From the NCBI RefSeq assembly GCF_900220975.1, contig NZ_OBQD01000016.1, positions 1-54,310 of the forward strand: a stretch of DNA of 54,310 nucleotides, read 5' to 3'. Made by a program: the position numbers and the translations under genes. Under the pieces are notes generated by a model, which worked only from the letters and a program-made list of their open reading frames with translations, did no database searches and was not told where the DNA came from. Of the stretch, positions 5,233-53,987 are shown piece by piece (position 1 is the stretch's first letter; the number at the start of each line of letters is the position of its first letter). The stretch is from Rhizobium subbaraonis. GTDB taxonomy: Bacteria > Pseudomonadota > Alphaproteobacteria > Rhizobiales > Rhizobiaceae.

Positions 5233-5322
5233 CCTTGTGCCTGATGCTGAAAAATGTGCCGTCTTCCGGCAGAATTACATTCGTATATATAGACGGTCCT
5301 TGTTTTAACGCGAGGGCTTCAA

Positions 5323-5669
5323 GTGACCAATAGCAAGCAACCCATTCTGGTTTTCGGCGCTACCGGAAGACAGGGAGGATCTGTCGCCAATGCTTTGCTG
5401 AAGGCGGGATGGCCCGTTCGCGCGCTCGTTCAGGATTCCAGCAAAGCTGCATCTGTGCAATTGCGGAATGCGGGCGTCGAGCTAGTGCAGGGTTCATTTG
5501 AAGAGACCAATGTTATCCGCTCAGCGATGAAAGACGCCTATGGCGTCTTTAGCGTGTTGCCAGCCAACCTGGCCGCCGAGGACGAAATTCGTTATGGTAT
5601 ATCGATTGCAGATATAGCTGCCGAAGCCGACATCAATCATTTTGTTTATACGTCAGGCGCGAGTGTTGG
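5323..5669 (+). pseudogene. NmrA-like NAD(P)-binding oxidoreductase, 5' part (split by IS66)
   Basis: The N-terminal 116 residues hold the Rossmann motif GATGRQGGSV (residues about 10-19), a basic residue after strand 2 and the NmrA-type segment FSVLPANLAAEDEIRYG...FVYTSGASVG. The frame then enters IS66 and stops within three codons. Removing the element and one copy of its 8-bp duplication joins this part in frame to 8178-8718, giving a continuous NmrA/SDR-a5-like protein of about 300 residues. Such proteins are NAD(P)-dependent quinone oxidoreductases or redox sensors, typically regulated by the divergent HxlR gene. As it stands the gene is inactivated unless the element excises. Confidence 0.9.
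5662..5669 (+). repeat. IS66 target-site duplication, left copy
   Basis: AGTGTTGG immediately precedes the GTAAGCG end of the element and recurs at 8170-8177. Eight bases is the normal IS66-family duplication. Confidence 0.9.
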
Positions 5670-5691: not shown

Positions 5692-7284
5692 TCAGGCTGT
5701 GTAATTCCACGGCATGAGTGCGTCGATTTCGCTGCTGGGCCAGCCGTTGGCTATGCGCTCGAGGGTCTGGGTGAGCCATGCCTGCGGATCGACGTTGTTC
5801 ATCTTCGCCGTCTGCAGGAGCGTGGCGATTGTCGCCCAGGTCTTGCCCCCGCCGTCGCTGCCGGCGAATAGACTGTTCTTTCTGGTAATTGCCTGGGGCC
5901 TGATAGCGCGCTCAACGATGTTGGAATCGAGCTCAATGCGGCCGTCGGCGAGGAAGCGTTCGAAGATAGAGCGACGTGAGGTAGCATAGCGGATCGCCTC
6001 TGCGAGCTTCGATTTGCCAGAGATCCGCGGTAGGGTCCTCTGCCAGAGGGCGAAGAGCTCAGTGACAACAGCGTCAGATGTCTTCTGGCGCGCCGCGACA
6101 CGAGCGTCAGGGCTTTGCCCACGCACCGTCTCTTCGACCTGCCAGAGCTTTGCCATGAGCTCCACCGTTTCGGTGGCGATCTTTGAGCTTTCGGAGGCGT
6201 GGAGCTCGTAGAACTTGCGCCTGCTGTGGGACCAGCAGCCGGCCAGCATCACACCGTCATTGCCGCCGTCAGATCGGGCAAGCTTGTTGTAGGCACCATA
6301 CCCGTCAACTTGGAGAATACCGCGATAGCCATTCAGGTGCCGGGCGACACGATCGCCAGCGCGGCTATCTTCGAAGCGATAGGCGACCATCGGCGGACCA
6401 CTGCCGCCGAAGGGTCTGTCATCTCTGGCATAGGCCCATAGCCAGGCCGTCTTTGCCGATCCGGATCCGGGCGCGAGCGTGGGCAACGTCGTCTCGTCAG
6501 CGAAGATCCGCTCAGCCTTCTTGATCTCGGCGAGGATATAGTCGGCCAGGATATCGAGCTCGAAGCCGAGCTTCCCCATCCATTGAGCCATCAGCTTCCG
6601 GTCAAGCTCAACCTTGTCGCGGGCATAGATTGCCTCCTGCCGATAGAGCGGAAGGCCGTCTGCATACTTCGAGACCGCGATCTGGGCGAGAAGCGCTTCC
6701 GTCGGAATGCCACCCTCGATGATGTGCGCGGGTGCGGCTGCCTGAATGACGCCGTCTTCGTTTTTGAAGGCATACTTCGGCCGGCGGGTGACGATGACCC
6801 GGAACTTCGCTGGCACGACATCCAGCCGTTCCGAGACGTCTTCCCCGATCAGCACCTTCTGCTTGCCGGCGTGTTCGGGCAGTTCATCTGGCTCGATCAC
6901 CACCTCGACCCGCTCCAGGTGAGGTGCGAAGCCTTTGCGCGGCCGCGGCTGACGTTTGCCATCCGGATGGGCTGTGCCCTTGGTGACCTGGGCTCGGATC
7001 GCAGCGATGCCGGTCTCGATCTCCTCGAAGACAAAAGCCTGCTGCTCGTCGTCGACGGTTGGGGAGCCAAGCTTCTCCGATCGCCGGCCGAAGCGGGCCC
7101 GATCGAAGGCTCTCAGGATCTGGGTCAGTCGCTCGATGCGTTCATCGGCATCGGCGTTTCTGGCCTTCAGGTCTGCGACCTCGCTCTCAAGAGCATCGGT
7201 GCGCGCTGCCTTCTCGGCCATGGCAAGGACCATGGCTTTCAGGGTCTCGACATCATCAGGGAGCAGCAGATCGGGCGGCGTCAT
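5692..7284 (-). CDS. tnpC: IS66 family transposase TnpC
   Basis: This 530-residue DDE transposase has an N-terminal coiled coil (about residues 25-60, ALESEVADLKARNADADERIERL), a zinc-finger/helix region, then the catalytic core with FADETTLPTLAPG (first Asp), LQVDGYGAYNKLA (second Asp) and a C-terminal DSNIVERAIRPQAITRKNSLFAGSDGG segment containing the catalytic Glu. This is the full family length, so the element looks competent. It follows tnpB after a 73-base gap on the same strand. Confidence 0.95.
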   Translation of the reverse strand: MTPPDLLLPDDVETLKAMVLAMAEKAARTDALESEVADLKARNADADERIERLTQILRAFDRARFGRRSEKLGSPTVDDEQQAFVFEEIETGIAAIRAQVTKGTAHPDGKRQPRPRKGFAPHLERVEVVIEPDELPEHAGKQKVLIGEDVSERLDVVPAKFRVIVTRRPKYAFKNEDGVIQAAAPAHIIEGGIPTEALLAQIAVSKYADGLPLYRQEAIYARDKVELDRKLMAQWMGKLGFELDILADYILAEIKKAERIFADETTLPTLAPGSGSAKTAWLWAYARDDRPFGGSGPPMVAYRFEDSRAGDRVARHLNGYRGILQVDGYGAYNKLARSDGGNDGVMLAGCWSHSRRKFYELHASESSKIATETVELMAKLWQVEETVRGQSPDARVAARQKTSDAVVTELFALWQRTLPRISGKSKLAEAIRYATSRRSIFERFLADGRIELDSNIVERAIRPQAITRKNSLFAGSDGGGKTWATIATLLQTAKMNNVDPQAWLTQTLERIANGWPSSEIDALMPWNYTA

Positions 7285-40408: not shown

Positions 40409-40801
40409 ATGCGACAGCCACCCATCATGTTCCGTCTGCCTGATCACATCCTCAGCAATGTCGAGGCTCTTGCCGGACGGCTCGATATCTCCGTCAACAT
40501 CATCGCCAAGCTGATCGTCACCAGGGAGATCATGCATATTCCGGCGATGCTCGAAGAGCATGATCGGCAAATGGCTAATATGCATCAGTTTCTCCGCGAA
40601 CTTGCCTGGCGCAACGAGGCGGTTCTCGCACAAGAGGTCAGGCATGCCGAGGGTACCAGGCTGATTGCACAAAAGCTGGACGACGTCATGGGGGCCATCG
40701 ACGCTGTCCGCGATGCCGCCTTTGTTCGGCCGTCATCTTACATTGTCGAGCTCATCAGGAAACACGATGAACGAGGTCTCCAGAAATCCCTCGAAGCCTA
40801 G
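40409..40801 (+). CDS. Relaxosome accessory protein, MobC-like position
   Basis: A 130-residue helical protein: MFRLPDHILSNVEALAGRLDISVNIIAKLIVTREIMHIPAMLEE suggests a short RHH-like N-terminus, followed by a long helical region and ...SYIVELIRKHDERGL. It overlaps the relaxase start by 35 bases. Genes in this position commonly encode MobC-type accessory proteins that open oriT DNA. No catalytic motif; family uncertain. Confidence 0.6.
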   Translation: MRQPPIMFRLPDHILSNVEALAGRLDISVNIIAKLIVTREIMHIPAMLEEHDRQMANMHQFLRELAWRNEAVLAQEVRHAEGTRLIAQKLDDVMGAIDAVRDAAFVRPSSYIVELIRKHDERGLQKSLEA

Positions 40802-42788
40802 ACCCGAAGGTCGGCGACTGCCGAGCTATCTTGATTTGATCGAAGACGATCTGCACCGACGTGGAGGAGGCGGCGGAGGAGGGGGAAAACGACCGGCGGC
40901 CGGCAAGAGCAAACGCCCGTCGACGAGACATGCCGGCGCGGCCTCGGCGATCAGTCGGGCTACAGGCAACAATGCAGTGGTGGTCAAGGTCCTTTCCTAT
41001 GGCGCCGGCGCGGGTTCGGCCCGTAACGTGCTCGCCTACCAGAGCAAGGAAGAAAAGGCGCTCGATCAGGATGGCCGCGAAGTATCGGATCTAAACCAGG
41101 CGGTGCGTTCATGGGAGAGGGATTTCGGCAATCGCAAGGGGAGCAGCGACGTGCTGCGTCTGACTTACGAGCTTGAAAACACCCGCCGGGAAGGCGTAGC
41201 CCGCGCACTTGCTTCACTCGCCGCCGACGGTTTCCATAAAGCCGGCGACCCTGTACGAACCTACGCCTTCAGTGTGAGCGACGGCGTAAACGGGCAAACA
41301 AGATTGCATTTCGCCCTGGTGATTGCTCACGAGAAGAAAGACAGGTCGGATCGAAGCAGCAGCAATCGCATTCCAGGAGAACTCGACGTGGCGCATGCGA
41401 TCGACACACGCTTGGATCGAGCTCTCCGGAACGAGGGAATTACGCCGATTTCCCGATACCCCGCTGAGTTTTCTTCAGGTCCAAAGGGGTTAACGGCAAC
41501 GCTGCACGCCATGCAGCGCAGGGGCGCGGAGGTAACGCTTTCGACGACGACGCATGTCGAGGAGCGTCCAGGCAGGAGCGGACGTTACCTCCATGGCACT
41601 GGGCAGCGGGAAATCACCACAGCGGATCACAGGCAACTGACGGCAGAAGGGAAAGTCGTCGGTGCCCTCATGCAAACCCGTCAGCCACGAGATTTCATGC
41701 ACCTGTTGCTGTCAGGACCGGCAAATGTCGATCGCGATCAGCTTGTCTATGCCGGGCGTGATTTTCTAAGAGAACAATTCGCCGGGCACCGTTATGCCTA
41801 TGCCGTCCATAATCGTAATGCTCTCGACAAGCATCCACACATGCATGTGATCGTTGCTCTACGAAACTCCAATGGCAAGATGCTCAATCCCAACATCCGC
41901 GACTTTACCGAATGGCGATACCGTTTCGCCGACAAGGCACGTGAACGGGGCATCTCGATCGACCGTCAGAAACGTCTTGAGCGGGCTGGCCCACCGCCCG
42001 TCAAGCGCTGGGAGTGGGAGATGTTTCGGCGAATGGGAGCCACGGCTCCGAGTAACGTCGTCGACAAAGTTCTGGCGAAGGTCCGCGATACGCCGACAGC
42101 CCCCAGATTGCAGGATGCACAAAAGCGGCTTGATCAGAGCCGGCGCGCAGTTGGGCTCATTCTGAAAATGTTGGAAGAGATAGGGAAGAATCGGTCGGCG
42201 CCCAGCACGGCGCGCGAACTTAGCCAGGACCTGTCGATAGGGCTCCAACGTGAATACCGGCGGCTTGAGACAGCCGTCCGCGCCGGTCGTGACCCAACAA
42301 ACGAGAAAGGAGAAGAGCACATGCTGAGATCGACACCTATCAGCGCTGCCCAGGCGAAGGCTGCGAAGGAGACACTGGCGAACACCGCAGTGAGTCTGGC
42401 CACGAAGATCGCCAACCCCTCCGATCGACTGATCTTCGAACAGGCGACGAAAATTATTGGGAAGGTCGTTGGGCTCCAGCTTGACTCACGGGTGGTCAAA
42501 AACCGCGATCGTGATGCCGCGGGTCAACAGAAAAGCAGCGTGAACAGTTTGGCGACGAAATCGGCGGCCGGCCGCGATCATGTTGCGGAGCAGGGTGTCG
42601 TCAACAAGAGTTCGAACAACCGATCGCTCGATCAATCACGCATCGCGCGCTCCAACGCCGAACATGACAGGTCGGAAGCGGATCGGCCAGATCCAAAGCG
42701 CGAAAAGGCTCAGCGACAGTCTAACGAGTCGCAGAAATCGATAAAACTTCGTCCGCCTCAGGAAAAGGATCGCGACCGGAGCCGCTGA
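40767..42788 (+). CDS. MobA/VirD2-type conjugative relaxase
   Basis: About 673 residues from ATG 40767, with CAGGAAA upstream and overlap with the previous gene. A Gly-run linker precedes the relaxase domain: VVVKVLSYGAGAGSARNVLAYQSKEEKAL (motif I region), EHTKR-like RLTYELE, and the metal motif HNRNALDKHPHMHVIVALRN near residue 350 (three-His cluster). The C-terminal 250 residues are helical then basic and disordered. It would nick oriT and pilot the strand through the T4SS via VirD4. It belongs to the MOBP-like group seen in rhizobial plasmids with VirB-type T4SS. The frame opens to 40665 but lacks a ribosome-binding site. Confidence 0.88.
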   Translation: MNEVSRNPSKPRPEGRRLPSYLDLIEDDLHRRGGGGGGGGKRPAAGKSKRPSTRHAGAASAISRATGNNAVVVKVLSYGAGAGSARNVLAYQSKEEKALDQDGREVSDLNQAVRSWERDFGNRKGSSDVLRLTYELENTRREGVARALASLAADGFHKAGDPVRTYAFSVSDGVNGQTRLHFALVIAHEKKDRSDRSSSNRIPGELDVAHAIDTRLDRALRNEGITPISRYPAEFSSGPKGLTATLHAMQRRGAEVTLSTTTHVEERPGRSGRYLHGTGQREITTADHRQLTAEGKVVGALMQTRQPRDFMHLLLSGPANVDRDQLVYAGRDFLREQFAGHRYAYAVHNRNALDKHPHMHVIVALRNSNGKMLNPNIRDFTEWRYRFADKARERGISIDRQKRLERAGPPPVKRWEWEMFRRMGATAPSNVVDKVLAKVRDTPTAPRLQDAQKRLDQSRRAVGLILKMLEEIGKNRSAPSTARELSQDLSIGLQREYRRLETAVRAGRDPTNEKGEEHMLRSTPISAAQAKAAKETLANTAVSLATKIANPSDRLIFEQATKIIGKVVGLQLDSRVVKNRDRDAAGQQKSSVNSLATKSAAGRDHVAEQGVVNKSSNNRSLDQSRIARSNAEHDRSEADRPDPKREKAQRQSNESQKSIKLRPPQEKDRDRSR

Positions 42789-43542: not shown

Positions 43543-44208
43543 TCACGCGGTCAACAGCACAGGGACCTCGGCTTCGCGAGCCGCAAAAGAGCGGCCCGCA
43601 TATAGGGGCTGGGCAATCTGCAAGCTCAACCGCATTTTGTTGCAGATGCGCTGCGAGACTTCGAAGGCTCCGCAGCATACCGCAAACCTTCCGTAGCCGT
43701 CTGCTCGACCAAGCTCGTCAAACTCCGCGCCGGCGCGGTTGTAGAACCTCCGCATGTGGGGTTCGTAGTTCGAGATCAGCGTATCAATGCCATTGTCGAG
43801 AGCCACTTCGCATAGCGCAAGGAGGAGAAGGCAGAAAGCACGGTCCGGACGCATATCGGTGAAGCTACAAGCTATAGCGTCTTCGTCGATGCACATGCGA
43901 GTTCCCTCCCAAATGCCGGGCGCAACGAGATCGCAGGCGTTCGGAAATGTCTCGCGAAATACATCGTAGAGAAGAGTAGGGCCCGTGGTTGGCATGAGCC
44001 GGACAGAACCGTAGAGTATCTGTCGATTGTCGCTGCACCATATGAGATAGGCAGGATGAAGGTCGTCGTAGCGATCCCTTTCATAAGGGCCGGACACTGC
44101 CACATCCCATCGGAGCTGGTCGGCGAAAACCCGCTTTCTCAGCCGGAACGATTGATCGAGCAGTTCGGCATGCTTATGATATTCGTGAGCCTGAACAAGA
44201 AGATACAT
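43543..44208 (-). CDS. LuxI-family acyl-homoserine-lactone synthase
   Basis: 221 residues from ATG 44208, six bases after GGAGG. Autoinducer-synthase signatures are present: RKRVFADQLRWDV (conserved Arg, Phe, Trp), DDLHPAYLIW, GSVRLMPTTGPTLLYDVF and WEGTRMCIDE with the catalytic Glu/Arg, then the C-terminal acyl-pocket region. It makes an AHL signal from SAM and acyl-ACP; chain length cannot be read. It lies downstream of luxR on the same strand. Position beside the relaxase mirrors traI/traR control of rhizobial plasmid transfer. Confidence 0.9.
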   Translation of the reverse strand: MYLLVQAHEYHKHAELLDQSFRLRKRVFADQLRWDVAVSGPYERDRYDDLHPAYLIWCSDNRQILYGSVRLMPTTGPTLLYDVFRETFPNACDLVAPGIWEGTRMCIDEDAIACSFTDMRPDRAFCLLLLALCEVALDNGIDTLISNYEPHMRRFYNRAGAEFDELGRADGYGRFAVCCGAFEVSQRICNKMRLSLQIAQPLYAGRSFAAREAEVPVLLTA

Positions 44209-44282
44209 GTTTGCCTCCATCATTTGATGAAAAGCACCATGAGGATTTCAAGAGAGCCGATAAATTCCCCAGAATGGTACCC

Positions 44283-45050
44283 TCAGTTGGGGGTATTGCC
44301 AAATGGATTGATCAGCCGCAGCTGCATCGCTCGCGCGATCGTAAAGGTGATCGAACCGCCCCCCAGTTTGTGGCGAGCCGACTTGATGTAGGCTCTTGTC
44401 GTATGCTCAGACAGCTTCAGCATCACCGCAATGTCGATACTGTCTTTGCCCAGTGCAGTCCAATGCAGGCACTCGATTTCACGACTGGATAGCTGCGGCA
44501 CTGGATCGTGCTCGCCGTGAAGTTCGAAGATGGCCTTGTGATGGATAAGAACGGCAAGCTCGCGCCATTCATTGCGGTATTGTTTGACAGTTACGCCCCA
44601 CTCGTCGGCGGCTTTGTGCGAATTGACAGAAAAGAGAGCTCGACGCGCCTTATCGACGATAGGGATCGAGAAACCGTTCGGGCCAATACCGTGATTATGC
44701 GCGTCCAGCAGAAAGCCGTGTGCTGAGTTTGGAATTTCGACTTCGCGCCAATCGAAAGGCATCTGTCGGACGAGACCTTCACGAAGTATGGGATCGATTT
44801 TGACGTAGTCACGAAGAAGGTAACGGGACACCCATTTGGGGTCGTAGGTGGTGCGCACAAATGGGGTGTCCACGACATCAGCAACCGTCAGCGCCAGATG
44901 GTAGGTCACAAAGTCGATATCGTACGCACGTTGGAAAAGTGGCAGGGCATCTGCGACTGTTGGTGCCGCCCCGATATCTCTAACTAGCTTCTCCACACGA
45001 TTCGGCTGCTGCACTTCGATTGTCTCCTTGCTATCAAACTTGAATGGCAT
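44283..45050 (-). CDS. LuxR-family quorum-sensing regulator
   Basis: 255 residues from ATG 45050 (TTG 45089 would add 13). The N-terminal AHL-binding domain includes FVTYHLALTV, PKWVSRYLLRDYVKIDPILREGL, FDWREVE and GFSIPIVDKARRALFSVNS. The C-terminal LuxR HTH is PQLSSREIECLHWTALGKDSIDIAVMLKLSEHTTRAYIKSARHKLGGGSITFTIARAMQLRLI. It should bind the AHL made by the adjacent LuxI and then 20-bp lux-box palindromes, for which 16741, 18225 and 38623 are candidates. A terminator-like hairpin lies 120 bases upstream. Confidence 0.9.
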   Translation of the reverse strand: MPFKFDSKETIEVQQPNRVEKLVRDIGAAPTVADALPLFQRAYDIDFVTYHLALTVADVVDTPFVRTTYDPKWVSRYLLRDYVKIDPILREGLVRQMPFDWREVEIPNSAHGFLLDAHNHGIGPNGFSIPIVDKARRALFSVNSHKAADEWGVTVKQYRNEWRELAVLIHHKAIFELHGEHDPVPQLSSREIECLHWTALGKDSIDIAVMLKLSEHTTRAYIKSARHKLGGGSITFTIARAMQLRLINPFGNTPN

Positions 45051-45168
45051 AACATAGGCTGACGACAAGGCGGTCTGTTGCCCGGCCAAGGTAGTGTCGA
45101 AAGGCCGTCACTGCTCGTTCGATGGAGCAGTAAATTTTGAAAGAACTCCGTCGTTGCAAAATAAAAAA

Positions 45169-45207
45169 GCCTTGACTCGATCTGTCAGAAACAGGTCGTT
45201 CCAAGGC
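45169..45207 (-). terminator. Intrinsic terminator upstream of luxR (minus strand)
   Basis: GCCTTG/CAAGGC (45169-45174, 45202-45207) and inner GATCTGT/ACAGGTC stems form a hairpin, followed on the minus strand by TTTTTTATTTTG. It could end an upstream transcript lost to the IS3 insertion, or attenuate luxR transcription. Confidence 0.65.
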
Positions 45208-45530
45208 CGTTATTGCCATATTTTAATACGGCATTTTTGCCGCATCAGGTGCGATTGTTCAAGAACACAGAATTCCCACGTTCCAGATTTTTAAAAAAAC
45301 GCGGGGCCACTTTATCGATATACAGGTAGCGTTAGTGCCAAAGTATATGCGCACTTTCGTAACTGACGTGGTCTATCAAGTCAATGGATGCATTTTTCCG
45401 CGGATGCTGGGATGCACTGGTGCGCACGCCGAGCGCCGTCGTTAGTGGCGACGCTGAGCTTTAAGAAAACTTATATTGGCCCGTCTTATAGCTTGTCAGC
45501 TGCCGTCTTATTAGATGACAGCAAGGATGC
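45208..45530. other. AT-richer spacer upstream of luxR
   Basis: About 320 bases with no gene. It includes GCCATATTTTAATACGGC-type symmetry near 45216-45236 and is notably less GC-rich than the flanks. It probably holds the luxR promoter and the left boundary of the IS3 remnant. Confidence 0.4.
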
Positions 45531-46257: not shown

Positions 46258-48465
46258 CTATCGGGTCAGCCTGTGAAAAATCGCCGGAAGGTGGGACGGC
46301 AGTTGCTCGACCCTCGTTACCGTCGTCGCTCCCTTGCGACCGAAAATCCGGTCGGCGTAGGACGGTGCGTCGGAGCCGAGCGCCACGCAGAACGTGTCGA
46401 TGCCCTTCTGATTGACTGAATGGACCGCGACCCGGGCGTCCTCCACGAGGTAACGTTCGTCGTCCACGTCGATATCCGAGGGCTCCCCGTCGGTGACCAC
46501 GAGCAACAGGCGTCGGTAGCTTCGTTGCCGCGAAAGGTCCTCGGCAGCATGCCTGATAGCCGTTCCGAGCCGGGTGGACATCCCGCTATCCAGACCCGCG
46601 AGACGCATCTTGGTCCTGAGATCGTAGGGCTCAGCGAAATCCTTGATCCGGAAATACCGGACATCTTCACGTGTGTCCGAACAGAATGCCGCCAAGGCGA
46701 ACTTGTCGCCTAGCCCGGCTATCGTGCTTGAAAGCAGGGCAGTTGAAACGCGCTCCACGTCGAGGACTTTCCTCGACCCGCCCTGAACGGCATCGTCGGT
46801 GGAGTTCGACACGTCGAGCAAGATCAGGACGGAAAGGTCTCGACTTCTCCGTTCGTAGCGGCTGTAGACCCTGAAATCGGGAGCTACGTTCATCCGACTG
46901 GAAATCGCGGCGTCGATGCAGGCGTCCATGTCGATAACATCGCCGTCGGCCTGCCGTCGCAAGCGTTCGGTTCGGCCCGTCCGCGCGGCACGGATCATGT
47001 TCGCCAGCTTCGACGAGATATCGGCATGTGCCTTCTCGGCGAGAATGATCGCATCGGCCGGCTTTTCCGGAACCCGGTGTTCTCGAACGGAACACCATTC
47101 GGTGCGATCCTTGCGCACGAGGTAATCGTATTCGGGATACCGGGCGACCAGAATCCCTTCGGACGCATCGCGGTTCAGGGAGACCTTCCCGACAGCCTCG
47201 CTATCGTTTATGTCTTCGGCTTCATCATCCGGTTTACCGTCGTCGCGCTGCTGCTGCTCGACCCGAGCGCCTTCGACGATGTCCTGCATTTCGATTGCCG
47301 GTTCCGCGGCGTCGCCGAAATCCCAGATACCGATGTTGTCGTCGCGATATGCGGGCTGGACGACATACCCCTTGGCATCGAACCGGATACGCATCTGACC
47401 GAGGTCGTTGCCGAGGAGACCGCCGATGGTCCTGCTGAGTGACTGGTCGGACAGATCGAAGTCCGCTGCTTGTTCGAACAGCGTTCGTCCCTTTTCGATC
47501 CAGCCATCTGGGTCGCGGTAGTCGCCGTCGATCAAGGCTCTCGCAAGCCTAGCCAGGAGCGCCGTGGCCAAGGGCGGGCCGCCGGGCTTGGCGACGTGAA
47601 AAGGCAGCCAAAGTTCTGCGAGACCCGGCAACTCGCGGATCGCCAGGCGTTCTACGCGAGCGTCCTCGATCACGGAAATGACGGCGAGCTGAAATGGCTT
47701 TAACGCTCCGACTGGGAAAAGCTGCTCCGTGTAGTGATGATGAGCGCCTACGTGAGCGACGGCGGCGCGATAGATACGACGCGACTCTTCACCGTCGAAC
47801 CCGGCAAACGAGGGAGGCATGCGGATGCCTCCGCCGCCGAACCCCACGCGGCGTCGCATCGGCTCGGGCATGTCGGGTGCGGCGACCTGCATGGGTGGCT
47901 CTATGCCCCACACGGCGCGTAGGTACGGTCTAAGCGTTCCCTGCAGGGCGGCGTATCGATCTGCACCCTCCTCGACATCGAAGAAGCGCCTCGCCTCCGG
48001 GTCTTCCATTTTGAAGAATGCCGCCTGCCTTTCTGGGTGGCGACGTCCGATGGCGAGCCCCATCGACACGAACGCTTTGAACCCGGCGAGATCGACCCTG
48101 TCGAGGATTTTGGCGCTGTTCTCCAGCAGCACGACGACCGCTGAGGGAGCGGCCTTCGCCGCATTCTCCACGATGAGCAGCCATTCGATGACTGCGTCCG
48201 GTCGGTAAAGGAGTTCCGCTACGGCGACGGCGCTGTCCGGTAAAATGGAAGTGGTCCGCTTGTCCGTCCGGATCGCGAACTCCGAGACTGCACGACCCAA
48301 CCTCAGTACGGGCTCGAGCCCCACGATATCCGCGAGCTCGGGTCCCCGTTGACGGTAGGCGCTGGCGACGAGATCACCGTACCCGGCTTGGTCGATTCTT
48401 TCGTGAGCCGACTTCCACTCGTCATCCCATCGCCCGGCATTCAGGAGGTCAGCGTGCGAAGCCAT
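46258..48465 (-). CDS. NorD-like protein with VWA domain
   Basis: 735 residues from ATG 48465, overlapping the stop of the upstream AAA+ gene. The N-terminal two-thirds are helical NorD/CbbO-type sequence; residues about 540-735 are a von Willebrand A domain with MIDAS motif DLSVLILLDVSNSTDD, a later TDGEPSDIDVDD and a T in GMSTRLG. NorQ/NorD or CbbQ/CbbO pairs act as AAA+ chaperone plus substrate adaptor for activation of metalloenzymes or Rubisco. Here the client is likely the amidase or an associated complex. The open frame to 49140 lies antisense or in another frame to the AAA+ gene and is excluded. Confidence 0.85.
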   Translation of the reverse strand: MASHADLLNAGRWDDEWKSAHERIDQAGYGDLVASAYRQRGPELADIVGLEPVLRLGRAVSEFAIRTDKRTTSILPDSAVAVAELLYRPDAVIEWLLIVENAAKAAPSAVVVLLENSAKILDRVDLAGFKAFVSMGLAIGRRHPERQAAFFKMEDPEARRFFDVEEGADRYAALQGTLRPYLRAVWGIEPPMQVAAPDMPEPMRRRVGFGGGGIRMPPSFAGFDGEESRRIYRAAVAHVGAHHHYTEQLFPVGALKPFQLAVISVIEDARVERLAIRELPGLAELWLPFHVAKPGGPPLATALLARLARALIDGDYRDPDGWIEKGRTLFEQAADFDLSDQSLSRTIGGLLGNDLGQMRIRFDAKGYVVQPAYRDDNIGIWDFGDAAEPAIEMQDIVEGARVEQQQRDDGKPDDEAEDINDSEAVGKVSLNRDASEGILVARYPEYDYLVRKDRTEWCSVREHRVPEKPADAIILAEKAHADISSKLANMIRAARTGRTERLRRQADGDVIDMDACIDAAISSRMNVAPDFRVYSRYERRSRDLSVLILLDVSNSTDDAVQGGSRKVLDVERVSTALLSSTIAGLGDKFALAAFCSDTREDVRYFRIKDFAEPYDLRTKMRLAGLDSGMSTRLGTAIRHAAEDLSRQRSYRRLLLVVTDGEPSDIDVDDERYLVEDARVAVHSVNQKGIDTFCVALGSDAPSYADRIFGRKGATTVTRVEQLPSHLPAIFHRLTR

Positions 48466-49304
48466 TAGAAACAGACCGATACGGCGGCGGTCAACGCTTC
48501 GCGGACGTCGGGGTCGTCGGTGATAGGGAGAACGATCGCCATCCGACAGGCTTGGGCGATCGGAATGCCCTGTCTCGTCAACATGGCGGCATGGATCAAC
48601 ATTCGCGTCGATGCCCCCTCGTCGAGACCGTGACCGCGTAGATTGCGCGACCGCTGCGCGACGCGAACCAGTGCGCTCGCTATAGCGGAGTCCACGCCCG
48701 CTTCCTTCGCCACGATCTCCGCTTCCGCCAAGTCGTCCGGATAATCGAAGCCGATCGCCGAAAACCGCTGCTTCGTAGATTCCTTGAGGTCTTTCAGGAC
48801 GCTTTGATATCCGGGATTGTAGGACACGACGATCCTGAAATTCGGATGAGCGCGGACCACCTCGTTCTTTTTCTCCAACGGGAGAATACGACGGTCGTCG
48901 GTCAGAGAATGGATAACGACGGTAGTGTCCTGCCTCGCTTCCACTATTTCGTCGAGATAGCATATCGCACCAAGGCGGGCCGCCATGGTGAGTGGGCCGT
49001 CGTGCCACTTGGTGCCGTCGGCGTCGAGCAGAAAGCGCCCTACGAGGTCGGCGGCCGTCATGTCTTCGTGGCAGGAAACGGTCACCAGGGGCTGGCCGAG
49101 ACGCCATGCCATATGTTCCACGAAACGGGTCTTGCCACATCCGGTCGGCCCCTTGAGCATGACGGGGATGCGCATCCGGTAAGCGGCCTCGAACAGCGCG
49201 ACTTCCTCACCCGAAGCTCGGTAAAACGGCTCCTCAACGATCGTGAAATCCTTCAGGGCGTCGGGTATGACGGACGCTTGATCGAGGTTGTTCCTGGGCT
49301 GCAT
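48465..49304 (-). CDS. NorQ/CbbQ-like MoxR-family AAA+ ATPase
   Basis: 279 residues. Walker A is GPTGCGKT (52-59), Walker B GAICYLDEIVEA (about 113-124), sensor region FRIVVSYNPGYQSVLKDLKESTKQRFSAIGFDYP, plus the CbbQ/NorQ C-terminal domain (STRMLIHAAMLTRQGI). It partners with the VWA protein encoded next. In Pseudomonas amide-utilisation operons an AAA protein (AmiB) also follows amiE, which supports a role in amide metabolism. It follows the amidase after 66 bases. Confidence 0.9.
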   Translation of the reverse strand: MQPRNNLDQASVIPDALKDFTIVEEPFYRASGEEVALFEAAYRMRIPVMLKGPTGCGKTRFVEHMAWRLGQPLVTVSCHEDMTAADLVGRFLLDADGTKWHDGPLTMAARLGAICYLDEIVEARQDTTVVIHSLTDDRRILPLEKKNEVVRAHPNFRIVVSYNPGYQSVLKDLKESTKQRFSAIGFDYPDDLAEAEIVAKEAGVDSAIASALVRVAQRSRNLRGHGLDEGASTRMLIHAAMLTRQGIPIAQACRMAIVLPITDDPDVREALTAAVSVCF

Positions 49305-49370: not shown

Positions 49371-50408
49371 TCAACGATGGGCGGTCGTGGAATTGGGAAT
49401 ACCCTCGATCGGGCATTCCTCCGTTCCGACAGTGCCACGGGTCATGGCCTCGACCATTTCGCGCGTGCCCTCCGGATCGCTGATCCACTTCGCATAGAAG
49501 TTGTACGGGCATGCAGCCGTACCCTTGTCGCCGTCACCCGAGTTGATGAGGCCCGTGTAGCCGCGGTGGAGAAGCTTGAAGAGGTGGTTCTGGGACTGAC
49601 CGTTCTTACGGGCGTCCCTGATCGCCGACACGGAGAGCTGGGCATACTGGATGCCGTTTTCCTCGGTGCCGCATTCGCCGAGCGTCCGGCCGTCAAAGCC
49701 GACGATGGCGGAATGACCGAAGTAGGAATAGACGCCGTCGAAACCCGCAGCATTCGCCACTGCGACGTAGACGTTATTAGCCCATGCCATGGATTTCGAC
49801 ATCTGGACCTGCTGGTCCTTTGCCGGATACATGTAGCCTTGGCAGCGGACGATCAGTTCCGCGCCGCGCATCGCGCAGTCACGCCAGATCTCGGGATAAT
49901 TTCCGTCATCGCAGATGATAAGGCTGATCTTGAGGCCTTTAGGGCCTTCGGAGACGTATGTGCAATCGCCCGGATACCAGCCCTCGATCGGAACCCAGGG
50001 CATGATTTTCCGGTACTTCTGGACGATCTCACCCTTGTTGTTCATGAGGATGAGCGTGTTATAGGGAGCCTTCTTGGGATGCTCCTCGTGACGTTCGCCC
50101 GTCAGGGAGAAGACGCCCCACACATTCGCCTTGCGGCATGCCTCGGAGAAGATCGCGGTTTCGTCGCCGGGAATCTGGGAGGCGGTTTCGTACATTTCCT
50201 TGGAATCGTACATGATCCCGTGGGTGGAATATTCCGGGAAGATCACGAGGTCCATGCCCGGGAGGCCGACTTTCATTCCCTCGATCATGTTCGCGATATT
50301 GCGCGCGTTCTCGAGAACTTCGGCTTTCGTGTGAAGCCTTGGCATCTTGTAATTCACGACGGCAACGCCGACCGTGTCTTTGCTGCTGGTGATATCGCCG
50401 TGGTACAT
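49371..50408 (-). CDS. amiE: Aliphatic amidase (AmiE-like)
   Basis: 345 residues from ATG 50408, preceded by GAGGAGA. Nitrilase-superfamily catalytic triad falls at the exact AmiE positions: Glu59 ([10 protein letters not shown]), Lys134 (KYRKIMPW) and Cys166 ([12 protein letters not shown]). The length and the C-terminal [29 protein letters not shown] match aliphatic amidase, which hydrolyses short amides such as acetamide to acid plus ammonia. Formamidase (AmiF) is a close relative; the acs remnant downstream favours acetamide. It starts an operon with the NorQ/NorD-like genes and is preceded by a 450-base leader with two terminators. Confidence 0.93.
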
Positions 50409-50457
50409 AGTCGTTCTCCTCACATTGATATTTCTGGGTTTGGTGGATGGTCGTTTT

Positions 50458-50492: not shown

Positions 50493-50681
50493 TTGCGGTG
50501 GACGCGAAGCGGTGGGAGGCCCGCCCCGCGAAACGGTCGTCTGCTGCTGCGGAGCGCCAACGTGGGTTCACGCCCCGAAAGGGACCCTCACCATCGATTG
50601 GGGCGGTAGACTGGACTTCGTTAAGTCCTGTTCGACCGGTCGCTCCGCCTTCGTTTCATTCTCCCCTGCAGGAATAAAAAA

Positions 50682-50723
50682 GGCCCCGGAACGGCCTGCT
50701 CGCGAGCAGTCCGTTCCGGGGCC
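50682..50723 (-). terminator. Strong bidirectional terminator in the amidase leader
   Basis: GGCCCCGGAACGG and CCGTTCCGGGGCC form a perfect 13-bp stem, continued after one mismatch by CTGCT/AGCAG, with a CGCG loop. T-rich runs flank it on both strands (TTTTTTATTCC on minus, TTTTTGCC on plus). On the amiE transcript it lies downstream of the first terminator. Confidence 0.8.
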
Positions 50724-50783
50724 TTTTTGCCTCCTGTGTAATTCGGCTCTGTTGCCGACAAGCTGCCCGGCGAGAACCGAACA

Positions 50784-50862
50784 CAAAAAACCCACGTTCC
50801 GCAAAGCGAAAAGCGTGGGGTCACATCACCCGTATTTCGATGGCATCTTTGCCATTCTGATC
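50784..50862 (-). ncRNA. Leader RNA of the amidase operon (twin A)
   Basis: Starting near 50862, the minus-strand transcript has a TGGCA-AAGA-TGCCA hairpin (50854-50841), a conserved linker (TCGAAATACGGGTGATGTGA), then a terminator hairpin CCCACG/CGTGGG (50819-50814, 50796-50791) with a TTTTTTG tail. It is nearly the same as the plus-strand leader at 51000-51072, including 17 bases of loop and stem. GGGT in the linker can pair with ACCC overlapping the terminator stem, a possible anti-terminator. Small regulatory RNA or riboswitch-like attenuator, class unknown. Confidence 0.65.
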
Positions 50863-50868
50863 TGGTAA

Positions 50869-50897
50869 AGACTAGGATACAGATTGGCCCGAGTCAA
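50869..50897 (-). promoter_or_regulatory. Promoter for the amidase operon
   Basis: On the minus strand TTGACT (50897-50892), a 17-bp spacer, and TAGTCT (50874-50869) give a sigma70-type promoter. The expected start is near 50862, just before the leader hairpin. Confidence 0.65.
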
Positions 50898-50964
50898 CAA
50901 CGAGTTGGCAGGCATAGAGTGGAAAAGCGTTCGGGAGGTACAAGCTACGCGCCAACAAAAGTTG

Positions 50965-50993
50965 TTGACGTCATAGTACGTGTTAGCTAACTT
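50965..50993 (+). promoter_or_regulatory. Promoter for the ABC transporter operon
   Basis: TTGACG (50965-50970), 17 bp, TAACTT (50988-50993). Both this and the divergent promoter are preceded by GTTGTTGAC-type sequence, so the duplication includes the -35 region. Confidence 0.65.
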
Positions 50994-50999
50994 TTCTCT

Positions 51000-51072
51000 G
51001 CTGGCAATAATGCCATCCAAATCAAAGGTAATGACGCCCCACGTTTTTCGCTTTGCGGAACGTGGTTTTTTT
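51000..51072 (+). ncRNA. Leader RNA of the ABC transporter operon (twin B)
   Basis: From about 51000 the RNA has TGGCA-ATAA-TGCCA (51002-51015), linker TCCAAATCAAAGGTAATGAC, then CCACG/CGTGG (51039-51043, 51061-51065) and seven T residues. The hairpin stem is kept while its loop differs from twin A, and the terminator loop TTTTTCGCTTTGCGGAA is almost unchanged. The transcript must read past this terminator to reach the GTG at 51146. Confidence 0.65.
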
Positions 51073-51145
51073 GTTTCTGCATGCGGGCGCACGAAAGCGC
51101 CTCGCGTCCGGGAACGGCGTCATAAAAACCGACAAGGGGAACTCG

Positions 51146-52159
51146 GTGAACATCCTTATCCGCGCCCTCTGCCCCATCTTTTTCGCCAGCGCGCTCACGT
51201 CCGCAGCGCATGCGGCCGAGACGTCGTATCCGCTCACAATACAGAATTGCGGGCGTGATATCACGATCAAGAGCGCCCCCACCAGGACGGTGTCGATCGG
51301 CCAGAGCAGCACCGAAATCCTCTACAAACTGGGTCTGGCGGACAAAGTCGTTGGTACCGCTCTCTGGGTGGGTCCGGTTCTCAAAGGATATGAAGAAATC
51401 GACTCCAGGATCGAACGTCTGGCGGACAACGATCCGAGTTTCGAGAGTGTTCTCTCGAAAAGGCCGGATTTGATCACCGTCCAATTCCAATGGCAGGTGG
51501 GACCTGAAGGTGTGGTGGCGAAACCCGAACAGTTCGAGGAACTCGGAATTCCGGTCTACACATCTCCCTCGGATTGTGTGGGTAAAGAGAATTCGGCGGC
51601 AAGTGACGGGGTCAGACATCAGGTCTTCACCATGGACCTCGTCTATCAGGAAATCCGTGACCTGGCCGCGATCTACGATATCCACGACAAGGGAGAAGCG
51701 GTTGTCGCAGACCTCAAGAAAAGAGAGGAAACGGCACGGGCAAAAGTCGCCGGACTGGACGGAAAAGTGTCGGCCGTGTTCTGGTTCTCGAGCGCTGCGC
51801 AGGCAGACCCCTACGTCGCAGGGAAAAATGGTGCCCCTGGCTACATAATGTCCGCGCTCGGTATCAAGAACGTCATTGAGACCGATGATGAATGGCCGAC
51901 GGTCGGTTGGGAAACGATCGCCAAGAAGAACCCTACTGTCATTGTCGCCGGATCTATGGAACGGCGTCGCTATCCGATGGACAGCTTGAAATCGAAGGTG
52001 TCGTTCCTCAAAAGCGATCCCGTGACGAAGTTGATGCCGTCCGTCGAGAAAGGCCACATCTTTCCAATGGATGCGCAGGCCATGAATCCGACAATACGGA
52101 CCATCGAGGGCATCGAAGTACTGGCGGATGCGGTCCAGAAAGCCGGACTGTCGAAATGA
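51146..52159 (+). CDS. Periplasmic binding protein of a FecB/BtuF-type ABC transporter
   Basis: 337 residues from GTG 51146 after AAGGGGA. Signal peptide NILIRALCPIFFASALTSAAHA, then a cluster A-II (class III) binding-protein fold: YPLTIQNCGRDITIKSAPTRTVSIGQSSTEILYKLGLADKVVGT, VLSKRPDLITV and GWETIAKKNPTVIVAGS. Such proteins bind iron-siderophores, cobalamin, haem or metal chelates. The ligand is not evident. The longer frame from 51053 would begin inside the terminator and is rejected. The stop overlaps the permease start. Confidence 0.88.
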   Translation: MNILIRALCPIFFASALTSAAHAAETSYPLTIQNCGRDITIKSAPTRTVSIGQSSTEILYKLGLADKVVGTALWVGPVLKGYEEIDSRIERLADNDPSFESVLSKRPDLITVQFQWQVGPEGVVAKPEQFEELGIPVYTSPSDCVGKENSAASDGVRHQVFTMDLVYQEIRDLAAIYDIHDKGEAVVADLKKREETARAKVAGLDGKVSAVFWFSSAAQADPYVAGKNGAPGYIMSALGIKNVIETDDEWPTVGWETIAKKNPTVIVAGSMERRRYPMDSLKSKVSFLKSDPVTKLMPSVEKGHIFPMDAQAMNPTIRTIEGIEVLADAVQKAGLSK

Positions 52160-53184
52160 CCAGTCCGGGCTCGCCTTTCTTCAAGACCGGAATGGCCCTT
52201 GGCGCGCTCGCCATCCTTCTGATAAGCGTCTGTATGGGGGCCGCGATCGGCGAGACGGCGATCCCCATTGCGACCGTCGCGCAGACGATAGCCAACAGGC
52301 TATGGGGGGCCGGATACGCCGTGTCCCCGCTCGATGAAGGCATCGTATGGAGCTATCGGCTTAGCCGCGCAGTCGTGGCCGCATGTTGCGGTTCCGCGCT
52401 CGCTATCTCCGGGGTAGTGCTTCAGTCCCTCCTGCGCAACCCTCTGGCCGATCCCTATATCCTCGGTATTTCTGCAGGAGCCTCTACGGGAGCGGTGAGT
52501 GTCGCCATCCTCGGGCTGGGCACCAGCATGCTGAGCCTGCCCCTCGGTGCTTTCCTCGGCGCGCTGACGGCATTCTTGCTGATAAGCCTCCTCGCCATGA
52601 AAACCGGCACCGGAACGACCGCCATCATCCTGGCAGGGGTCGCCGGTTCACAACTCTTCAACGCGTTGACGTCCTTTATCGTAACAAAGGCAGCTACCGC
52701 CGAGCAGGCGCGTGGAATCATGTTCTGGCTTCTTGGAAATCTGTCCGGCGTAAGATGGCCGGACGCGTACCTGGCTATTCCGGCAACACTACTCGGCCTC
52801 GTGATCTGTCTAAGGCACTCGCGCGCGCTTGACGCGTTCGCGTTCGGCTCGAACTCGGCGGCGTCACTCGGCATATCCGTGCTCCGGACCCAGATCGTCG
52901 TTATCGGCGCGTCAGCCGTTATGACCGCGACGATGGTGTCTATCGTCGGCTCGATAGGGTTTGTGGGCCTAGTAATACCCCATGCCGCACGCATGCTGGT
53001 AGGTGTGAGACACGGTGTGCTGCTGCCCGCGTCGGCGCTCATCGGGGCGGTTTTCATGATCCTCGCGGACATATTTTCACGCACCCTCATCCCCGGACAG
53101 GTTCTGCCAGTCGGCGTGGTGACCGCGCTGGTGGGCGCGCCGGTGTTCGCCGTCATTCTATCGAAAAAGAGAGAACGGGCATGA
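52156..53184 (+). CDS. FecCD/BtuC-type ABC transporter permease
   Basis: 342 residues from ATG 52156 (ATGA overlap), with about ten membrane helices. The family signatures are YRLSRAVVAACCGSALAISGVVLQSLLRNPLADPYILGISAGAS and IGFVGLVIPHAARMLVGVRHGVLLPASALIGAVFMILADIFSRTLIPGQVLPVGVVTALVGAPVF, with the coupling loop PLADP. It imports the ligand delivered by the binding protein. The longer upstream frame (from 51892) overlaps the binding-protein gene and is rejected. Confidence 0.93.
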   Translation: MTSPGSPFFKTGMALGALAILLISVCMGAAIGETAIPIATVAQTIANRLWGAGYAVSPLDEGIVWSYRLSRAVVAACCGSALAISGVVLQSLLRNPLADPYILGISAGASTGAVSVAILGLGTSMLSLPLGAFLGALTAFLLISLLAMKTGTGTTAIILAGVAGSQLFNALTSFIVTKAATAEQARGIMFWLLGNLSGVRWPDAYLAIPATLLGLVICLRHSRALDAFAFGSNSAASLGISVLRTQIVVIGASAVMTATMVSIVGSIGFVGLVIPHAARMLVGVRHGVLLPASALIGAVFMILADIFSRTLIPGQVLPVGVVTALVGAPVFAVILSKKRERA

Positions 53185-53987
53185 AGCTATCGGCGACTGA
53201 TCTCTCCTGGTCCATAGGTGGCAACACCCTCCTCCAGTCTATTTCTTTCGAGGTCGCGAACGGAGAGTTTTTCGGCATCGTCGGCCCCAACGGATCGGGA
53301 AAAACGACGCTCATGTCCCTTCTATCGGGAATTCGGAAGCCTCAGGTCGGCAGCGTGACACTGGATGGACAACCCCTGTCAAAAATCGGAAGACGCGATG
53401 TCGCACGAAATATCGCTCTCGTAGAGCAGCAGGCGGAAACGGGCGAACGCCTCACAGCGCGGCAGGCGGTCGAGCTTGGTCGCACACCACACCTCGGCGC
53501 ATACTCACCCTGGACGCAGGAAGACACCGAAACCGTGAATCGGGCGCTACGAAACGTGGACATGGATCATCTCGCGGAACGATACTGGCACACTCTCTCG
53601 GGCGGCGAGCGCCAGAGGCTTCACATCGCCCGGGCTCTTGCACAGGAACCCAAGGTGCTTCTGCTCGACGAACCGACCAACCATCTCGACATCGGCCACC
53701 AGATCGACCTTCTCGATCTTGTCGGGAAACTCGACCTTACCGTAGTCACGGCATTGCACGACCTCAACCATGCGGCCCTGTTCTGCGACCGGATCGCGCT
53801 CATGCAAAACGGGTCGCTGGTTGCGCTCGGCAAACCGTCCGAAGTTCTGACGGTGGATTGTATCCGCGAGGTCTTCGGGGTCGAGGCCGAAGTGGAACCC
53901 ATTGGACAAGGCAGCTGTAACATACGTTTCGTCCCGCGCAGTCGGATTCACCACGCTCGCGAGAGCCGATTCAGGGCCGCTAGTTAA
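53181..53987 (+). CDS. FecE/BtuD-type ABC transporter ATPase
   Basis: 268 residues overlapping the permease stop. It carries Walker A GPNGSGKTT (about 36-44), Q-loop ALVEQQAETGE, signature LSGGERQRLHIARALAQEP, Walker B VLLLDEPTNHLD and H-loop VVTALHDLNHA. It completes a typical three-gene importer for metal chelates or corrinoids. Confidence 0.95.
   Translation: MKLSATDLSWSIGGNTLLQSISFEVANGEFFGIVGPNGSGKTTLMSLLSGIRKPQVGSVTLDGQPLSKIGRRDVARNIALVEQQAETGERLTARQAVELGRTPHLGAYSPWTQEDTETVNRALRNVDMDHLAERYWHTLSGGERQRLHIARALAQEPKVLLLDEPTNHLDIGHQIDLLDLVGKLDLTVVTALHDLNHAALFCDRIALMQNGSLVALGKPSEVLTVDCIREVFGVEAEVEPIGQGSCNIRFVPRSRIHHARESRFRAAS

Follow-up and report, generated by a model that had tools for sequence, protein, structure and literature searches.

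The window analysed here is a 54,310-nucleotide stretch (C31:1-54310) of the Rhizobium subbaraonis genome, which is available as 6.58 Mb in 85 contigs. Two divergent operons are found in the window. The minus-strand operon begins with an aliphatic amidase gene (AmiE; 49371..50423), identified by NCBIfam model PRK13286.1 (719.3 bits; cut-off 427) and by Pfam CN_hydrolase. It also contains a CbbQ/NirQ/NorQ-type AAA ATPase (48465..49304; Pfam AAA_5 and CbbQ_C) and an open reading frame with the VWA-domain partner of CbbQ (46258..49140; Pfam VWA). VWA is also annotated in relatives; comparison with these places the true start of the VWA gene probably near 48,470. In Roseibium and Rhizobium etli 8C-3 the related genes form one cluster in the order amiC-amiR-leader-urt genes-amidase-CbbQ-VWA; a record labelled Roseateles sp. 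XES5 has an amiC-amiR-leader-urt-amidase-CbbQ-VWA cluster with extra genes.

The plus-strand operon encodes a FecCD/BtuFCD-type importer: a substrate-binding protein (51146..52159; Pfam Peripla_BP_2), a FecCD-type permease (open reading frame 52021..53184; Pfam FecCD at residues 65-382) and an ATPase (53181..53987; Pfam ABC_tran). The first part of the permease reading frame overlaps the binding-protein gene and the true start is further in. NCBIfam models for siderophore (EitA/EitC), F420-0 and B12 importers all score below cut-off. The right window edge meets a run of N (C31:54311-54409; positions 5312-5410 of locus L111), where a methyltransferase reading frame ends; DNA after this run, between the importer operon and amiC, looks insertion-sequence-like by eye.

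Homologues of AmiC (C31:55786-56937) and AmiR (C31:56951-57607) are encoded 1.5-3.3 kb to the right of the window edge, on the contig and strand of the importer. The AmiR homologue has Pfam AmiR_N and ANTAR domains, and its best PDB match is AmiR in 1QO0 (E 1.4e-12). The AmiC homologue matches AmiC in 1PEA/1QO0 (E 1.3e-86) in second place; its top match is 8TG1, an extracellular ligand-binding receptor (E 1.4e-90). Of the NCBIfam models UrtA fits it best, though below cut-off, and this counts against the AmiC-AmiR reading. No obvious signal peptide is seen by eye, which fits a cytoplasmic sensor role. The arrangement of an AmiR_N-ANTAR protein adjoining an AmiC-like binding protein is that of an AmiC-AmiR pair. 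A search of the genome found two ANTAR genes (PF03861), at C31:57422-57583 and C36:78420-78578; the second looks NasT-like, since its neighbour resembles, by eye, a nitrate-type binding protein.

The original prediction placed twin, opposite-facing leader RNAs between the two operons. Both are present, at 50785-50860 on the minus strand (AMI_1) and 50996-51072 on the plus strand; each shows a small hairpin followed by an intrinsic terminator, with promoter-like hexamers in front. A third, tandem attenuator on the amidase side (AMI_2; 50677-50763, minus strand) had been overlooked. A DNA search of the organism's own genome aligned AMI_1 with the importer leader over 71 bases at 83% identity (E 1.6e-13) and returned two matches in total at E up to 0.001. 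With up to two mismatches allowed, the window has two occurrences of the 16-base terminator core, against 0.07 expected from shuffling. The back-to-back TTGAC-N17-TA arrangement was also confirmed by eye, as divergent pairs resembling the -35/-10 consensus only: TTGACT-N17-TAGTCT at 50897-50869 (minus strand) and TTGACG-N17-TAACTT at 50965-50993 (plus strand). If these pairs are promoters, both transcripts would start a few bases from the first hairpin (P1). P1 had been described as a TGGCA/TGCCA stem with a tetraloop; a UGGC/GCCA stem closing a hexaloop fits better. Position 1 of the P1 loop is A in 13 of 13 aligned leaders and position 6 varies (C in seven, T in four, G in one, A in one), so the extra A-U pair is not conserved.

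AMI_1, itself one of the training rows of model R1, scores 77.7 bits with it. Its P1, AUGGC[AAAGAU]GCCAU (50855-50840), is followed by an 8-nt linker, a second hairpin (P2), GGGU[GAUGUG]ACCC (50831-50818), and a terminator (50819-50791) with a T-run to 50785; P2 overlaps the outer arm of the terminator by 2 nt. AMI_2, which is not a training row, scores 22.8 bits; it has P1 UCGGC[AACAGA]GCCGA, an 11-nt linker, P2 GGC[AAAAAG]GCC and a strong terminator which overlaps the whole 3' arm of P2. Second tandem leaders are present in relatives too. The importer leader, a training row, scores 66.7 bits; its P1, UGGC[AAUAAU]GCCA (51002-51015), is separated by a linker, read by eye as 11 nt, from P2, GGU[AAUGAC]GCC (51027-51038), and its terminator (51039-51065) has a T-run to 51072. 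P1 and P2 stems are 5 and 4 bp in AMI_1, 5 and 3 bp in AMI_2, and 4 and 3 bp in the importer leader.

Two tandem hexaloop hairpins are characteristic of RNA targets of ANTAR proteins, and all three leaders have them; the linkers also lie within the 2-25 nt described for such RNAs (PMC8164766). Overlap of P2 with the terminator is a further ANTAR trait which the importer leader does not have: P2 ends at 51038 and the terminator stem begins at 51039. In its minimum-energy fold, P2 and the terminator form together. With a P2 of only 3 bp (-0.7 kcal/mol) that adjoins the terminator and shares no base with it, control of this leader is not accounted for by simple competition between base pairs. In AMI_1 the constrained antiterminator fold has -22.1 kcal/mol (versus -23.9) and retains a shortened terminator stem. 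Folding stability alone is unremarkable (z-scores of -1.19 and -1.79); the support for the leaders is comparative.

In ANTAR-target RNAs the first loop base is described as A and the fourth as G (A1 and G4; PMC3369931, PMC8164766). An alignment was made of 13 leaders, two from the window and 11 from the 12 amiR-linked loci; L144 was left out for its longer linker. The P1 loop has A1 in 13/13 and G4 in 11/13; the P2 loop has A1 in 9/13 (G in the rest) and G4 in 12/13. When L144 is included (loops AGAGAA and GAAGCA), the counts become 14/14 and 12/14 for P1, and 9/14 and 13/14 for P2. Position 2 is mostly A as well; positions 3, 5 and 6 are variable. Loops which depart from the rule are AMI_1 P2 (GAUGUG), importer P1 (AAUAAU) and both loops of AMI_2 (AACAGA and AAAAAG).

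The suggestion of a duplicated, conserved fold also holds so far as sequence goes, with pairing kept across the aligned leaders and some compensatory changes. With P1 and P2 formed, 98.3% of alignment cells are paired and two pairs have changed on both sides; with P1 and the terminator formed, the values are 97.4% and four pairs. Slid control structures give 33-61%. Shuffles reached the number of two-sided changes in 1/500 cases for the terminator form, a strong control, and in 120/500 for the P1-P2 form, a weak one. The aligned rows are related, so the loop and pair counts are not independent.

Leaders of the same kind are found in other genomes, as had been anticipated. A P1-P2-terminator series lies within about 100 nt 3' of amiR in 12 of 12 distinct loci whose AmiR has 53% identity or more (L106 and L119, having the same sequence, were counted once). 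The scan behind this count demands overlap of P2 with the terminator. Neither the importer leader nor the one following the organism's own amiR was picked up by it, and some of its calls were overlapping and false. In the window it gave eight matches among 722 overlapping 300-nt pieces, true leaders included.

The importer leader, with both hexaloops, is kept on the plasmids of Shinella WSC3-e and Agrobacterium MWF001. The P2 loops of the three copies (AAUGAC, AACGAC, ACCGAC) all retain A1 and G4. The Shinella and Agrobacterium copies share the A4 in P1 and the three-pair P2, which are thus a kept trait of the importer-leader branch. Perhaps this leader acts sterically, or is weak or leaky. 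The Agrobacterium MWF001 plasmid also has a canonical ANTAR leader of 67.5 bits (L175 23580-23656, plus strand) which points into the importer gene in antisense and is perhaps a rearranged leftover; no clear target gene was found at this locus or at the locus of the second leader of genome G118 (L173).

Taken together, the leaders are very probably targets of the AmiR-type ANTAR antiterminator at C31:56951-57607, which would control both the amidase and the importer operons. In Pseudomonas aeruginosa, AmiC releases AmiR upon amide binding (PMC3369931); ANTAR proteins are described as binding hexaloops and stopping the uptake of P2 into the terminator (PMC3369931, PMC8934654). In R. subbaraonis, AmiC would keep AmiR inactive when inducer is absent; the transcript would form P1 and then the terminator, and transcription would stop. 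Binding of an amide-like inducer to AmiC would free AmiR, which would bind the hexaloops of P1 and P2, hold P2 and so block the terminator. Transcription would then read through into amidase-CbbQ-VWA in one direction and into the BtuFCD/FecCD-type importer in the opposite one. The candidate leaders before amiC-amiR, the cobW operon and cbtBA are probably targets of AmiR as well, and one amide signal would then drive amide breakdown and cobalt/corrinoid acquisition together. The sequences show the motif with its conserved loops, the AmiC and AmiR homologues, the pairing of leader and operon in relatives and the lack of a cobalamin riboswitch at this importer copy; AmiR binding, the identity of the inducer, the direction in which control runs and the metabolic role of the cobalt genes are inferred.

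The original prediction read the leaders as attenuators answering, probably, to one shared signal, and this part stands as far as can be judged from sequence. It also proposed that the RNA is itself the ligand sensor, a new riboswitch in which the hairpin-linker-terminator unit binds a metabolite common to amide use and import. This part is unsupported, since an AmiC-like sensor and an AmiR-like ANTAR antiterminator are encoded nearby and the leaders carry the dual-hexaloop motif. A riboswitch would be consistent with the short conserved linker, the duplication of the leader and the Rfam results: as had been expected, no class matches the leaders, and Rfam 15 gave no match in the window at gathering score and none at E up to 10 in 50700-51150. 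However, the RNA has two small hairpins with variable loop positions and linker and no larger aptamer, and its conservation is centred on loop positions 1, 2 and 4, of which 1 and 4 are those of the ANTAR rule. Together with the nearby AmiC and AmiR homologues, this makes a new riboswitch extremely improbable.

Constitutive attenuation, or an unregulated inverted element whose second copy is a passive by-product of duplication, is unlikely. The terminator cores are identical over 16 bases, which suggests recent duplication or conversion and would suit a passive copy, as would the lack of overlap between P2 and the terminator in the importer leader; yet that leader persists with both hexaloops in all three copies, the one in the window and those on plasmids of Shinella WSC3-e and Agrobacterium MWF001. 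It is also quite improbable that a DNA-binding repressor exerts the main control while the leaders merely tune the level. Such a repressor could bind at GTCAACAAC (50893-50901) and GTTGTTGAC (50961-50969), which form a perfect inverted repeat around the -35-like boxes. This repeat, however, includes both -35-like hexamers and is explained by promoter symmetry; moreover, the sole DNA-binding regulator among the scanned reading frames is LuxR-type (44283-45089) and is not adjacent to the promoters. Antitermination by AmiR remains the preferred reading.

Model R1 was run on the window, L111 and eight other loci. Eight sites reach at least 20 bits in the window and L111, the first two (77.7 and 66.7 bits) being training rows; one further window site has 14.9 bits. 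As a control, 458 kb of 78 other loci gave no match of at least 20 bits (best 15.8). Candidate leaders are found before amiC (C31:55611-55695; 22.4 bits), the cobW operon (C31:57652-57739; 22.1 bits) and cbtBA (C31:60999-61086; 20.2 bits); Pfam identified CobW, CbtA and CbtB. On score alone, the weak sites are close to noise in a whole-genome search (one is listed, with E 0.09, where 150 of 4462 candidates were scored), so they rest on position and conservation. The cobW and cbtB leaders are kept on the Agrobacterium MWF001 plasmid, where R1 missed the cbtB one. Candidate amiC leaders precede annotated amiC-like genes in L106, L107 and L175, and in L174 a candidate lies some 1.4 kb ahead of amiR, at the place expected for amiC.

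The region C31:57764-66696 (L111 8765-17697) encodes a 205-aa protein, a DUF6925 protein, CobW, CbtB, CbtA and a tubulin-like protein, as well as another protein with weak similarity to tubulin that stays below the Pfam cut-off; a further gene there looks by eye like a second CbbQ ATPase. A corresponding annotated cluster on the Agrobacterium MWF001 plasmid (L175 11187-23315) additionally has a ferredoxin-domain gene and a VWA gene. Cobalt nitrile hydratase (PF02979), a possible reason for the cobalt genes, had no match in the organism's own genome; the control also gave no match, which leaves its absence unproven.

Two further candidates lie directly before a luxR-luxI pair (43543-45089, minus strand; Autoind_bind/GerE and Autoind_synth); a relaxase gene (40665-42788) is no more than 1 kb away from this pair. 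The ANTAR-like candidate at 45164..45248 (minus strand; 20.4 bits) has P1 loop AAAAAU, no clean P2 hexaloop and a terminator with a T-run. In tandem with it is a candidate decayed leader at 45269..45346 (minus strand; 21.2 bits), whose stem has no T-run after it. The lux leader stretch had no plasmid match; a query which included the lux genes matched 293 plasmid records. The lux-side leaders may be a relic fused by rearrangement, or may belong to an amide-controlled quorum-sensing operon.

A different RNA precedes related importer genes in other genomes. The cobalamin riboswitch (RF00174), which in these loci is a metabolite-binding RNA of about 210-250 nt, is found upstream of the binding-protein gene in 46 of 47 retrieved relatives (17/18, 20/20 and 9/9), which are close relatives only, taken from genome contigs in one scan. 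It is also present upstream of an importer paralogue on contig C35 of the organism's own genome. In contrast, Rfam searches of the window and L111 found no RF00174 upstream of the window importer, and Rfam found no cobalamin riboswitch at the importers of two plasmid copies (L104 and L105). A remnant of the riboswitch was also considered, since relatives carry one; neither the window nor L111 gave a match. The only one of the 47 loci which does not carry the riboswitch is L069 (Rhizobium sp. LC145), which has no R1 match. In seven loci (L051-L054 and L056-L058; five named Agrobacterium and two 'Rhizobiales bacterium'), a terC RNA (RF03067) is found at positions 5834-6382, some 1.9-2.4 kb beyond the gene for the importer's binding protein.

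In a 52-row tree, drawn with a midpoint root for display only, the window copy and the two plasmid copies, each with ANTAR leaders, form one clade (100/99). This clade is nested in a 21-row set (100/98) whose other members, except L069, have the riboswitch. On the simplest reading, the riboswitch was lost in this importer lineage and control by amide was gained.

Distribution of the system is uneven. Of 297 family genomes, 27 have amiR (E up to 1e-15), 19 have the amidase (E up to 1e-60) and 11 have an R1 match at E below 1e-10; ten of these 11, the organism's own included, supplied training rows. AmiR is found in seven of 385 class-level genomes. R1 matches 23 places in 20 of the family genomes; nine of these places, at E of about 0.002-0.007, are treated as unproven. 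Three of the nine were inspected (L164, L165 and L166) and show no clear P2; in L166, though, a terminator is preceded by a long P1 whose loop, AUCGCU, has A1 and G4. When the raw leader was searched as DNA against 199 family genomes, only three matches, of 22-29 bases (E 0.005-0.007), came up beyond the organism's own copies. Four other genomes of the same genus (G054, G145, G209 and G263) have no amidase, amiR or R1 match, which makes the cluster patchy within its own genus. Named relatives of the window genes are mostly Rhizobiaceae and Brucellaceae. The cluster is nearest to plasmids of Shinella WSC3-e, Shinella WSD5-1 and Agrobacterium MWF001; for this reason, it is probably mobile.

The leaders are best read as a known kind of element, ANTAR antitermination of the AmiR/NasR/EutV kind, with an unusual set of targets, and not as a new riboswitch. 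The amiE leader of P. aeruginosa is alike in having AmiC, the ANTAR protein AmiR, an aliphatic amidase and a dual-hexaloop leader before a terminator (PMC3369931). R. subbaraonis differs in its tandem amidase leaders, in another leader before a divergent importer operon, and in the further candidate leaders before amiC, the cobW operon and cbtBA. The eut leaders bound by EutV in Enterococcus faecalis also have A1/G4 hexaloops and several terminators served by one ANTAR protein (PMC3369931, PMC8934654); unlike EutV, the AmiR of R. subbaraonis carries an AmiR_N domain and is partnered by AmiC, in place of a phosphorylated receiver and a histidine kinase. The plasmid amiCRE operon of Pseudomonas veronii Yu15 includes amiE, amiC, amiR, a CbbQ-like ATPase and a NorD-like protein (PMC13209695). 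The parts of that account consulted mention neither a divergent cobalt/corrinoid importer nor a leader RNA structure (PMC13209695). The gene set was not found in the titles and abstract openings of the papers listed on ANTAR with cobalamin, cobalt transport, amidase or quorum sensing.

Tentatively, an amide-sensing ANTAR regulon on Rhizobiaceae plasmids may have taken over cobalt/corrinoid acquisition (the importer, cobW and cbtBA), replacing a riboswitch, so that cobalt uptake would track amide and not B12; luxR-luxI may be included. Opines control the transfer of Ti plasmids; if luxR-luxI is reached, quorum sensing would likewise be tied to a nutrient, here an amide. The aligned alphaproteobacterial ANTAR RNAs are supplied; Rfam 15 gave no match for them here. 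If the proposal is true, the locus would be a clean example of an operon which traded a riboswitch for a protein-read leader. It would also imply a cobalt/corrinoid need, so far unrecognised, in the amidase-CbbQ-VWA-tubulin-like pathway; this link between amide and cobalt is the part that merits testing.
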